From: a virus
DNA length: 21,769 nt
Direction: 5' to 3' (one strand)
IMG/VR virus record: IMGVR_UViG_3300022200_001811
Location: 1-21,769 of that record
Shown: piece after piece, positions 8,154 to 12,112 of the stretch
Position numbering within the stretch: the first letter of the stretch is position 1
How the letters are laid out: every line of letters starts with the position of its first letter
Made by a program: the position numbers and the translations under genes
Notes under the pieces: generated by a model
Told to the model about the DNA's origin: nothing
What the model saw: only the letters and a program-made list of their open reading frames with translations
Databases searched by the model: none

Positions 8154-8988
8154 TACCGTAAACCCTCGCACTGAAGCTGATGCCCATTAGATCACGCGGC
8201 CCCGCGTTGCTTGGTCGAATAACCGCATCCGATCTCGCGCAATAATACACGTCTTGCGCGTATTTGTCAGGACGCCATGCAAATAGAAACGCCTTGCCCT
8301 CGCCAAATCTGGCTTGGAAGTCCAGCCAATCGCTCGACCGGATAAACTCAGCGGGGATGTACGTCAGTTCAGCCGACAGTGTTGCCCCGCTTGTGATAAC
8401 GGACGACCCTAGTAACTCGCCGCCGATGCTCACATTTGATTGCAACGCCACTTCGGTAGGCGTCAACACGGGCGAAAACCCTTGATACATGCGCTGCGGT
8501 AAAACCAACTCACTGCCAAGAAACGCTACGCCGATATTAACCTGATCAGATGCAGCCAAGCCCGTGATGTAAAACTGCCAGTAGCGCCGCGCCGTTCCAC
8601 CCATGGCCATACGCCACGCCAGAGGCTTGTTATCAGCCGCTACAACAGCACCCGCGCCCCCGTCCGCATATGTCACCCCGTCCGCAGAGTTGCGCACCTG
8701 TACGGTAGCCCCAAGCGTGCCAAGGTTATGCGATACCAGCGCCGCAAAGCCGACCACCGCCGCCGCGCCCAGATCAAACGACAGAATAACCTCGTTTGCG
8801 CTCTCAATCGCGCGGTATTTGTCATAAGTGGATCCCGTGACAGCGTTAGCAAAAGCCCCGCCGTCAATGGGCGTTGTTCCCGACAGCGTGGCCGATGCGC
8901 CGATATTATCCCACACGACAAACGGGTTATTTAGATACCCATCAGCCGCAAGCTCGATCCCCCGCAATGGCGCTGTAACTATCCCCAT
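8146..8988 (-). CDS. Distal tail-like protein with galactose-binding-like insertion
   Basis: A 280-residue protein immediately after the tape measure (TAATG overlap), where siphophages encode the distal tail protein that caps the tube and starts the tail tip. Residues about 55-158 (EVILSFDLGAAAVVGFAALV, later ARRYWQFYITGL and INIGVAFLG-type strands) resemble the discoidin or F5/8-type galactose-binding-like beta-sandwich found in phage baseplate proteins. The C-terminal part (SDWLDFQARFGEGKAFLFAW) resembles the closing strands of tube-domain proteins. Together this suggests a distal tail protein with an inserted sugar-binding-type domain. Domain assignment is by pattern only; no family search was possible. 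Confidence 0.7.
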   Translation of the reverse strand: MGIVTAPLRGIELAADGYLNNPFVVWDNIGASATLSGTTPIDGGAFANAVTGSTYDKYRAIESANEVILSFDLGAAAVVGFAALVSHNLGTLGATVQVRNSADGVTYADGGAGAVVAADNKPLAWRMAMGGTARRYWQFYITGLAASDQVNIGVAFLGSELVLPQRMYQGFSPVLTPTEVALQSNVSIGGELLGSSVITSGATLSAELTYIPAEFIRSSDWLDFQARFGEGKAFLFAWRPDKYAQDVYYCARSDAVIRPSNAGPRDLMGISFSARVYGNG

Positions 8989-11159
8989 TATGCGCTCCTA
9001 ACGTTAAGATTGCCGCCATCGCCCAGCCAATCATTTAGCCCCTTGGCAATCGTGCTAATCGTGTCAGCCGTTGGCGCAAAGCCGCCCTGAAAGCTAATAT
9101 TGGCAGTGCGGTATTCATTCACCGTTGAAGTGGTTGACGTAGACCCTGTTGGCGCTGACGCCGTGCTTCCGCCGCCCGATGAATTTACGCTTTTTATGGA
9201 CGCGATAAGGCCCGCCGTTTTGATTAATGACGCCCCAGTGAATGCCGCCGCTACAGCAGGGCCACCGATTTTCATACCCTTAGCCCAAGCGTCAGTAGCT
9301 GCCTCATATCCGCTAACAAGCGCATTCGCTAGAGATGCGGCTTGCCCAATCTTGAATAGTTTTTTGTTGCCGGAATTTGCTAGCGTTGCAATATCCGAAA
9401 ACATGCCCTTATACCCATCAAGGCGATTTTTGACAGACGCGTCATTGATGCCCGCCAACTTCTCGGCGTGCTGTTTCTCAAGTTCTTCAATCGCAGCGTT
9501 ATACTCAGAGCGTGTAAGAAGTTCAGCCTCAAGCGCATAGGCAAGGGTTTCTCGCCCCATCGCATACCATTCAGCCACCACTTCCGCCTCGGTCGCAAAT
9601 CCCTCTTGCAGCGCCTCAAGCCGCGCGGCCATATCCGCAGCGATGCCAGCGCCACCGGCAACTCCAGGCGTTGTGGTTGTCACTACAGGCGCGTCACCAT
9701 CACCGGCTGGCGCATCACCAGGCGCGGGCGGCAACAGTGAACCATTGCCTAGACCTTCACCGCCAAACGTCATTCCAGTGCGTCCACTGATTGCATCGCT
9801 AAGGCGTGTAAATGCTGCCGCCGCTTCATCAACTCCGCCGCTTGCAAGGGCTTTCGCCTCGTCGTTAAGCGCCTTTGTTGTTGCCACAGCTTCATTCGCC
9901 GCCGCTGTATATTCATAAACCGCAGACCCGGCAACAATTGCAAATCCGCCGATAGCTTCAGCCGCATCACCCATGCCTGGAATGTTGGCAAGCCCTTGGC
10001 TAACATTGCGCAAAAATCCAACCCATACTTTTTGGATGCCCTCGATCATGGTGTAAAAGCCGGTCGCGATTGTTGACCATACTGCGCCCATTGCAGGCAC
10101 AAGCGCGCTTGCACTTGTTCCAATCCCGCTGAATACAGCCTTGGCAACGCCACCCATCAGAGTTAGAGCATTGCCGAATCCGCCGACATTCTCGACCAAA
10201 TCCATAAACTTGGTTATCAAATACCCTGCGCCAATAACAAGCGCCCCGATGCCGGTCAGAAGAATTGCCCCGCGCAACGCCACCATAGCACCCGTTAGAA
10301 AGCCTGTGCTTGTGACCATTGCATAAATCGCTGGGATCGCTTTTGCAGTCATCGCGACAGCCAACACGCCGATTGAATTGACCATCACGTCAAGATTATC
10401 GCTAATAAATCCGATCACGTCGCGAAACTTGCTGCCCTCGCCTACTAATTCTAGAAAGCCATTTGACAGCGCGATAATGGCAGGCGCAACGTTAGCCGCC
10501 ATGATGTTGCCAAGACCGCCAATCGCCATGCCAATGCGCCCAAACGCGTCATTAGCCGCCTCTATTTGATCGCTGTCAAACTGCGAAACAGCAATCCCAA
10601 ATTCCTCTTGGAACTTCGCAGCCTCAGCCGCCTTTGCAGAATAATCCGAAAGCATGTTGATCGCGTCTTTTCCTGAACGACCAAAAACTTCCATTGCCGC
10701 CGCCGTTTTTCTGGCGGGGTCTTTTATTGCATCAAGGCTTTTAGCAATCTTGGCAAATTGTTCATCTGGCGAAAGCCCTTTAAGGTCGCCAATGGAAAGC
10801 CCCAGCCCTTTGAACGCTTCAGTCTGTAGTTTTGTGCCCTTTTGCAATTCTATAATATTGCGTTGCATCAATCCAAGCATTGAAGACAGCTTGCCGCTTT
10901 CAATCCCTGCCTCACCGGCAACCATGCTCATCTTTTGAAATGCGGACGTAGTAAGGCCAAGGCTTCGCGCTTGCTTTGCTAACGCATCAACATTGGCAAG
11001 GCTTGACTTGGTTAGCCCGATCAGTGCCGCGCCCGCAGCAGCAATAGCAACAGCGCCAACCTTGGCAAATCGTGCAAGGTTGGCTTGGCCTTTTGACAGT
11101 GCACTATCAAGCCCGCTTGTGTCGCCGTTAATGTTTACCTTGATTTCTTGCGTGGTCAT
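8988..11159 (-). CDS. Tail tape measure protein
   Basis: A 723-residue protein and the longest tail gene upstream of the tip. It starts with a beta-type TMP N-terminus (EIKVNINGDTSGLDSAL), followed by long Ala-rich helices, two hydrophobic blocks (about residues 255-320) likely to insert in the host membrane, a Pro/Gly/Thr-rich spacer (about 470-505), further coiled helices, and a Gly/Ser/Thr-rich segment near the end. It sets tail length; at the usual rule of about 0.15 nm per residue this implies a tail near 105-110 nm. It starts immediately after the stop of the -1 frame chaperone extension (TAA then ATG), consistent with the fixed chaperone-tape measure order of long-tailed phages. Confidence 0.92.
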   Translation of the reverse strand: MTTQEIKVNINGDTSGLDSALSKGQANLARFAKVGAVAIAAAGAALIGLTKSSLANVDALAKQARSLGLTTSAFQKMSMVAGEAGIESGKLSSMLGLMQRNIIELQKGTKLQTEAFKGLGLSIGDLKGLSPDEQFAKIAKSLDAIKDPARKTAAAMEVFGRSGKDAINMLSDYSAKAAEAAKFQEEFGIAVSQFDSDQIEAANDAFGRIGMAIGGLGNIMAANVAPAIIALSNGFLELVGEGSKFRDVIGFISDNLDVMVNSIGVLAVAMTAKAIPAIYAMVTSTGFLTGAMVALRGAILLTGIGALVIGAGYLITKFMDLVENVGGFGNALTLMGGVAKAVFSGIGTSASALVPAMGAVWSTIATGFYTMIEGIQKVWVGFLRNVSQGLANIPGMGDAAEAIGGFAIVAGSAVYEYTAAANEAVATTKALNDEAKALASGGVDEAAAAFTRLSDAISGRTGMTFGGEGLGNGSLLPPAPGDAPAGDGDAPVVTTTTPGVAGGAGIAADMAARLEALQEGFATEAEVVAEWYAMGRETLAYALEAELLTRSEYNAAIEELEKQHAEKLAGINDASVKNRLDGYKGMFSDIATLANSGNKKLFKIGQAASLANALVSGYEAATDAWAKGMKIGGPAVAAAFTGASLIKTAGLIASIKSVNSSGGGSTASAPTGSTSTTSTVNEYRTANISFQGGFAPTADTISTIAKGLNDWLGDGGNLNVRSA

Positions 11160-11396
11160 TTACCAGCCCTCTGCCAGATAATCCAGTGTCGCGCGGGTAA
11201 GGCCGCCCGCATAATCATTGGCCTTGTCGCGCGGGCTTCTGTGGTGCCATTCGCAAAACCATTCAGGCAATGTCATCTCCCAAAAGTCAGACGGTGACAG
11301 CCCCCACTCGCGCCCTATCAAATAGAGGCTGTCCCAATCTATCGCTTCGACTTCGCTGTCTTCGACGGCGGGGATTTGACGGCGGGGGCCACGGGC
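11160..11396 (-). CDS. Tail assembly chaperone extension made by -1 frameshift (GT-like)
   Basis: Reading -1 from the slippery site, 78 codons are open up to TAA at 11160-11162, which abuts the tape measure ATG. The core IDWDSLYLIGREWGLSPSDF followed by WEMTLPEW matches the small tail-assembly-chaperone family found after gp10 in Rhodobacter gene transfer agents and related phages. No convincing start codon or ribosome site precedes the core in this frame, so it should be translated as a fusion with the upstream gene: 104 residues of frame 0 plus 78 residues here, 182 in total. In lambda the equivalent G and GT proteins, at a fixed ratio, bind the tape measure during tail assembly. The presence of the frame and motif is seen; frameshifting itself is inferred. 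Confidence 0.82.
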   Translation of the reverse strand, partial: ARGPRRQIPAVEDSEVEAIDWDSLYLIGREWGLSPSDFWEMTLPEWFCEWHHRSPRDKANDYAGGLTRATLDYLAEGW

Positions 11397-11707
11397 TTTT
11401 TTTCGTTTGGCTCAACTGGTGTAATGGCCGTAGCAACAGCCGTGGCAATCGCATCAATTTGGCCTTGGCTTGCCGACATGATGTAACCAAAGACATCGTC
11501 TTCAGTAACAACAGCGCCGCCAGCCTTCAGAAACTCAGCAGCCACAAAAGCCAATGATGGTGCACTGATAGGCCCAACTGCAAGCCCGTGCATCAAAACC
11601 GCGACATTAACGCCCTGCCCCTCAATTCGCCGCAACAACTTGTTGGATGGGGTGAACACATAATCCACCCCGCCCCATTCAATTGTGACCTCACGAAAAA
11701 CGCCCAT
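11339..11707 (-). CDS. Tail assembly chaperone (G-like, frame-0 product)
   Basis: A 122-residue protein between the major tail protein (stop and ATG abut) and the tape measure. The N-terminal region (VTIEWGGVDYVFTPSNKLLRRIE) resembles the gene-transfer-agent gp10 / tail chaperone family. The middle is helical, and the last 20 residues are a Lys/Pro/Ser-rich tail (KSPPSKTAKSKR) that is dispensable if the ribosome shifts. The slippery heptamer A AAA AAG falls at codons 102-104 in the correct phase. This shorter product would be the abundant form, and the frameshifted fusion the rarer one. Role: binding and solubilising the tape measure and recruiting tube subunits, as known for lambda gpG. Confidence 0.82.
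   Translation of the reverse strand: MGVFREVTIEWGGVDYVFTPSNKLLRRIEGQGVNVAVLMHGLAVGPISAPSLAFVAAEFLKAGGAVVTEDDVFGYIMSASQGQIDAIATAVATAITPVEPNEKKPVAPAVKSPPSKTAKSKR
11396..11402 (-). other. Programmed -1 ribosomal frameshift site (A AAA AAG)
   Basis: The minus strand reads GAA AAA AAG in frame 0, so A AAA AAG has the X XXY YYZ phase required for tandem -1 slippage of the two lysine tRNAs. It is among the most efficient heptamers known in bacteria. Slippage enters an open frame that encodes a tail chaperone motif and ends at the tape measure start. A small GGC/GCC stem just downstream may or may not help; no strong Shine-Dalgarno stimulator is apparent upstream. Confidence 0.82.
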
Positions 11708-12112
11708 TTATGCCGCCGCCGTGTAAACGATTGCACCAGACGATGAAAGCGATGCGCTGAAAGTGTTTTCACCGTCATGCGCCCCACCTGTCTCAAACGA
11801 ACCAAGGAACCAATCGCCGGTAAATGTGCCAACGCTTTCAACTTCGACTTCGTAGTCGGAAAGCAATCCAGACCCCGCGCCCATTGCAACGGCCATGAGG
11901 GTTCCATCTTTCAATACACCCTCAACAGCTAGTGCCACATTGCGCACCGATATATCCGCAAGCAATGTAGTCCAGCCCGCGTCATCCTTATCAGTGACGT
12001 CAATAGGCTCGTTGTTGATTGTGAGGGTATCACTACGCGAACCCAAGATTGCCACGGCGGCAACCCCAGTTCCGCTTGAAATGCGCACTCTGCGCCCTGA
12101 TCCTGCTGCCAT
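11708..12112 (-). CDS. Major tail (tube) protein
   Basis: A 134-residue protein with an AGGAGG ribosome site, and the first gene after a promoter-like repeat. The pattern is that of TP901-1-type tube proteins: an N-terminal RRVRISSGTG strand, INNEPIDVTDKDDAGWTTLL (about 32-51), then GVLKDGTL, a second domain half, and a C-terminal FSASLSSSGAIVYT strand. Many copies polymerise into the tail tube around the tape measure. Gene order (terminator, tube, chaperone, tape measure) supports the call. A dedicated promoter-like element and the best ribosome site in the region fit a highly expressed virion protein. Confidence 0.9.
   Translation of the reverse strand: MAAGSGRRVRISSGTGVAAVAILGSRSDTLTINNEPIDVTDKDDAGWTTLLADISVRNVALAVEGVLKDGTLMAVAMGAGSGLLSDYEVEVESVGTFTGDWFLGSFETGGAHDGENTFSASLSSSGAIVYTAAA

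Follow-up and report, generated by a model that had tools for sequence, protein, structure and literature searches.

Evidence for a -1 programmed frameshift in a G/GT-type tail chaperone gene of a long-tailed phage, and for probable counterparts in gene transfer agents outside Rhodobacterales

Introduction

A conserved -1 frameshift in the tail genes of long-tailed phages was described by Xu et al. 2004 (cited in PMC3556154 and PMC5009743). The precedent is the gpG/gpGT pair of phage lambda, for which a ratio model has been set out (PMC5009743). Other arrangements of this type have been reported. In phiCbK-like Caulobacter phages, gp93/gp94 involve a frameshift at AAAAAAC (PMC3556154), and a programmed frameshift is usual in the tail chaperone genes of the R. 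capsulatus phages described in PMC8601537, being absent in RcZahn. In the gene transfer agent (GTA) RcGTA, the products of g10 and g10.5 (= g10.1) are named tail chaperones 1 and 2 in a paper whose text does not contain the word frameshift (PMC11409702).

Here we analyze a chaperone locus in a 21,769-nucleotide stretch of viral DNA (IMG/VR record IMGVR_UViG_3300022200_001811, positions 1 to 21,769; referred to as the window). The original prediction for this locus proposed that a -1 frameshift fuses a gp10-like protein to a small GTA-type chaperone. Comparison of relatives and patterns of selection strongly support the frameshift reading, and the locus very probably encodes a tail-assembly chaperone pair of the G/GT type in a long-tailed phage.

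Anatomy of the chaperone locus

All features of the locus lie on the minus strand, as listed below.

8988..11159, minus strand: tape measure protein of 723 aa, matching phrog_9483 (tail length tape measure protein) at E=7e-74
11160..11162, minus strand: TAA terminating the fusion, with the ATG of the tape measure gene adjoining at 11159
11163..11396, minus strand: -1 extension (T analogue), 78 codons, with the TAC_6-like domain IDWDSLYL...LSPSDFWEMT
11339-11341, minus strand: stop TAG of the zero-frame gp10-like gene
11339..11707, minus strand: zero-frame gp10-like gene (G analogue, short tail-assembly chaperone), 122 aa
11396..11402, minus strand: slippery heptamer A AAA AAG, codons 102-104
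11708..12112, minus strand: major tail tube protein (PF06199, E=2e-19; phrog_1407 major tail protein)

Matches to Pfam and PHROGs give the gene order tail tube, chaperone, extension, tape measure, with the tail tube gene directly 5' of the chaperone and, further upstream, genes for the tail terminator, neck, head-closure, capsid, protease, and portal. Elsewhere in the window, a minus-strand open reading frame at 950-1513 was judged by eye to resemble a phage lysozyme.

Read from the minus strand, zero-frame codons 102-104 are GAA AAA AAG, which places A AAA AAG (11402-11396) in the X XXY YYZ phase that had been proposed. The -1 frame is open for 78 codons as predicted, contains the DW...LSPSDFW motif, and ends at the tape-measure ATG with TAA at 11162-11160; a -1 slip would give a fusion of 182 aa. 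In the window, 20.7 kb of minus-strand genes contain four canonical in-phase heptamers besides this one, and at each of those the -1 frame closes after 11-18 codons. The -1 frame (11411-11163) holds no ATG, GTG, or TTG ahead of the conserved DW, in agreement with the claim that it lacks a convincing start of its own. Its first standard start is a TTG at 11321, inside the domain and 3' of DW; before that, only the non-standard codons ATC at 11375 and ATA at 11342 come into question.

The locus resembles lambda gpG/gpGT in its position ahead of the tape measure gene, in a -1 shift late in the first chaperone, and in a short extension with no separate start. The lambda heptamer is GGGAAAG, whereas the window has A AAA AAG, and the protein families are PF11836 and PF09550 instead of lambda G and T. 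The pre-tape-measure chaperone frameshift is shared with the phiCbK-like phages, which infect an alphaproteobacterium. With RcGTA g10/g10.1, the window shares the family pair by profile (PF11836 with a g10.1/TAC_6-like domain) and the order before the tape measure.

Protein families and predicted structures

The identification of the two parts as a gp10-like protein and a small GTA-type chaperone agrees with profile matches, which are weak and under the curated cut-offs for both. The 122-aa gp10-like protein matches PF11836 (Phage_TAC_11, GTA-gp10) with an E-value of 0.0045 and a score of 17.5 against a cut-off of 27.8 bits, and the extension matches PF09550 (Phage_TAC_6, small chaperone TAC) with an E-value of 2.3e-4 and a score of 21.9, just under the cut-off of 23.4 bits. 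One viral relative, L057, exceeds the curated cut-off for PF11836.

AlphaFold2 models were built from 19-20 aligned sequences, with rows from named phages left out. The gp10 model (pLDDT 82) has a confident body of two strands and five helices and is disordered from about residue 101 onward, so the slip site falls within a flexible linker or tail. The extension is modeled with a helical core at a pLDDT of 93-95. A Foldseek comparison of the gp10 model with the PDB gave no significant match.

The window lacks the short tape measure expected of a GTA: its tape measure has 723 aa compared with an expected ~200 aa, and PHROGs assigns its large tail proteins to phage families. It reads as a phage fragment rather than a GTA cluster.

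Conservation among phage relatives

Viral relatives were collected in scans with the gp10 query (13 loci), the extension query (20 loci), and an alignment (80 loci), which gave overlapping sets. Two named phages were added, Oceanospirillum phage vB_OliS_GJ44 (L034) and Alteromonas phage XX1924 (L035). From 101 sequences with gp10, 99 had both parts, including the window and the two named phages.

In this set, which holds near-duplicates and repeat loci of one contig, the extension is in the -1 frame in all 99 sequences, and a heptamer lies in phase within or at the overlap in 98 of the 99. After clustering at 70% identity, 14 of 15 clusters have an in-phase canonical heptamer, compared with a mean of 2.8 and a maximum of 8 in 2000 synonymous-codon shuffles; a codon shuffle null gave a mean of 0.8 and a maximum of 5. 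At 50% identity it is present in 10 of 11 clusters, against a shuffle mean of 1.9. This conservation makes a chance origin of the heptamer untenable. The exception is L057 (contig IMGVR_UViG_3300028388_000929, 2990-3400), which keeps the -1 open reading frame and has neither a canonical heptamer nor a clear start; near the junction it reads CGG GAA AAG TTT.

A frame change at a homopolymer in a metagenomic contig could arise from a sequencing or assembly error, or mark a decayed gene. The probability of this is minimal, and the recurrence of the arrangement rules it out: the layout is shared by many contigs assembled independently from different samples, as well as by the genomes of named phages, and the overlap combines a zero-frame stop with a conserved -1 protein. 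In the GenBank records of both named phages the locus is annotated as two separate genes, the extension being listed as a hypothetical protein with a late start, even though the 3' end of the upstream gene carries A AAA AAG in phase. The expectation that gene callers would mis-start the extension is thus realized in both.

The heptamer varies among the viral relatives (A AAA AAG, AAAAAAT, AAAAAAC, and AAAAAAA) with its phase kept, and one clade (the L042, L048, and L053 groups) has C CCA AAG. These variants are relevant to another route to the fusion. The window heptamer lies within GAAAAAAAG, an A7 run at which slippage of RNA polymerase (transcriptional realignment) could give mRNAs one base longer or shorter that encode the fusion. 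An A7 run is short for efficient transcriptional realignment, and the phase of the heptamer relative to the codons is maintained in every clade. Furthermore, C CCA AAG contains no long homopolymer, which argues for tandem tRNA slippage over slippage of RNA polymerase. Transcriptional realignment is, on these grounds, highly unlikely.

Selection and RNA signals

Purifying selection acts on the extension. In a comparison of nine near relatives, the part past the zero-frame stop has a mean dN of 0.044 and dS of 0.54, and the gp10 body has a mean dN of 0.042 and dS of 0.85. Within the overlap, zero-frame dS is down to 0.19, and dN is 0.108 in the -1 frame compared with 0.181 in the zero frame, so that the -1 frame is the more constrained. 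Synonymous variation at conserved residues is found at 61 of 80 in codons 1-99 compared with 1 of 9 in codons 101-112. Selection, like the anatomy of the locus, its conservation, and its lack of an alternative start, is shown by the sequence data.

These data bear on the proposal that the extension is a separate gene, translated from an internal start (TTG at 11321 or ATA at 11342) or by ribosomes that reinitiate at the stop codon of the zero frame at 11339. Rhodobacterales GTA loci do solve the problem in this way, mostly with ATGA overlaps. Here, however, the -1 frame has no ATG, GTG, or TTG ahead of DW, synonymous sites are frozen around the heptamer, and the heptamer itself is conserved among the phage relatives, making a separate start extremely unlikely.

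No consistent Shine-Dalgarno-like stimulator was found upstream of the heptamer among the relatives, and none was found for the window. Downstream RNA folding on L003, which is identical to the window here, was not clearly more stable than that of shuffled sequences, with z-scores of -1.7 at 40 nt and -0.7 at 55 nt. Among the viral relatives z-scores range from about +0.9 to -4.9, varying with the relative and the length, and some relatives have stable downstream stems. A stem CGCCC...GGGCG seen in several relatives is not claimed as a stimulator; it overlaps a conserved Arg-Arg-Pro in the -1 frame and its z-scores are mixed.

A model for the phage locus

For the window locus we infer that slippage occurs, and likewise its rate and function. 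Under -1 programmed frameshifting, most ribosomes would stay in the zero frame and produce the 122-aa gp10-like chaperone. A minority would slip back one base, with two tRNA-Lys paired with the AAA AAG of A AAA AAG, and continue for 78 codons to yield the 182-aa fusion, whose C-terminal part would be the small TAC_6 domain. If the lambda gpG/gpGT model carries over, coating of the tape measure protein would fall to the short form and recruitment of the tail-tube protein to the fusion. The phage case is routine and well supported, and the current annotation is wrong.

GTA loci with start codons

The original prediction also suggested that related GTA clusters may be frameshifted and called for a search of homologous GTA and phage loci for a conserved heptamer. 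The suggestion fails for the 12 Rhodobacterales loci examined and probably holds, judging from sequence comparison, for several other alphaproteobacterial groups. A scan of genome contigs with the gp10 alignment gave no match, and Rhodobacterales genomes were instead reached with a 16S probe. The resulting set has 12 loci, for example from Roseobacter sp. MED193, Pseudooceanicola spongiae, and Leisingera aquimarina; R. capsulatus is not among them.

Unlike the window, these loci have two genes of which the second is self-started. No canonical slippery heptamer of the A/T kind was found in any of the 12 loci, and g10.1 has its own start in all 12, with ATG over the g10 stop as ATGA in 8. In L228 and L231 g10.1 shares the frame of g10, and in L230 and L234 it is in the +1 frame, so a -1 slip could not serve these four. 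The alternative arrangement, a second open reading frame with its own start and no heptamer, is therefore that of Rhodobacterales-type GTAs and not of the phage relatives. In the order of G025, about twenty further loci have an overlapping GTG or ATG start.

GTA-type loci with heptamers outside Rhodobacterales

The g10 genes of the orders of G020 and G142, and of part of the order of G025, have C CCT TTY in phase, with a few CCCTTTG. The C CCT TTY site coincides with a -1 frame P-F-x-W at which the g10.1 domain begins. These loci have no start codon upstream of P-F-x-W, and the g10 stop falls about 19-46 nt 3' of the heptamer. Several of them, L315-L318 for instance, do have an ATG overlapping the g10 stop, but it is 3' of the conserved FxW. 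The GTA-type frameshift set comprises L241, L242, L254, L255, L279-L286, L294-L313, L315-L318, L343, and L364.

These clusters share with the window the family pair, the -1 extension, and the lack of a start before the conserved FxW. They differ in having mostly C CCT TTY and sometimes G GGA AAG as the heptamer, in lying in a host genome, in a GTA g15-type protein in most regions read, and in tape measures mostly of about 175-245 aa where recognized. For the assignment to GTAs, 25 larger regions were read out and compared by protein with L324. About 20 of the 25 have several of the GTA tail genes g11-g15 and head genes in GTA order, a group that includes the start-type loci L330 and L331 and the unclassified L332. 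Only a partial GTA gene set was found for L371, L372, L374, and L375, and matches were weak for L370. In L321 and L324, Pfam identifies portal, capsid, and GTA_TIM (PF13547) at E-values of about 1e-147 and 1e-156. Gene content thus indicates that most, although not all, heptamer loci read are GTA-type, and the rarer heptamer loci L352, L359, and L360 may be prophages.

A total of 103 distinct loci, including an even class-wide sample added to the set, were scored for the two arrangements. A heptamer without a start was found in 42, a start without a heptamer in 54, both in 1, and neither in 6 (Fisher p 3e-21, a value that overstates the exclusion because the loci are related and the 'start' and 'heptamer' windows were set after seeing the data). 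The first-listed heptamers are CCCTTTC (25), CCCTTTT (6), CCCTTTG (4), GGGAAAG (3), GGGAAAC (2), GGGTTTG (1; locus L300, which also has CCCTTTC), and AAAAAAG (1). The PF11836 loci L239, L240, L253, L356, L361, and L363 have no in-phase heptamer and no start before the conserved motif; L240 reads CCC TTC CCG TGG, one base from a slippery form.

The Phe codon of PFxW is TTT at 35 of 36 sites, compared with 38% of other Phe codons. Start-type loci favor TTT there too (20 of 28), which leaves a fair contrast of only p = 0.008, and the conserved TTT was dropped as proof of GTA frameshifting. The g10 tree (99 rows, 133 columns) is poorly resolved, with about 10 changes between slip and start on the best tree, of which 2 are forced by supported branches; an independent-pairs test on this tree had too few pairs.

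Together, it is likely that the chaperone pair is expressed by -1 frameshifting at C CCU UUY or G GGA AAG in GTAs of several alphaproteobacterial groups, and by overlapping starts in Rhodobacterales and at least one other group. No prior report of a GTA chaperone frameshift was found in the open PMC papers, which were the literature searched. If true, a domesticated virus-like particle keeps, or swaps, a phage ratio-setting device. This wider result outweighs the phage case, as short-tailed, host-encoded GTAs seem to be frameshifted or start-stop overlapped by lineage. The split between lineages offers a natural comparison of the roles of chaperone ratio, physical fusion, and the mere presence of both proteins in tail assembly. 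Annotations of frameshift-type GTAs are likely to omit g10.1 or give it a wrong start.

Two local features of these loci were also recorded. In L315-L318 and L241 (order of G142), the DNA just 3' of C CCT TTC folds far more stably than shuffled sequence, at z-scores of about -3 to -7, and this fold is a candidate stimulatory structure. Many start-type GTA loci in the order of G025 (L258-L278) keep CTTTCCCTGG at FxW in spite of using a start codon, which may be what is left of an ancestral C CCT TTC site.
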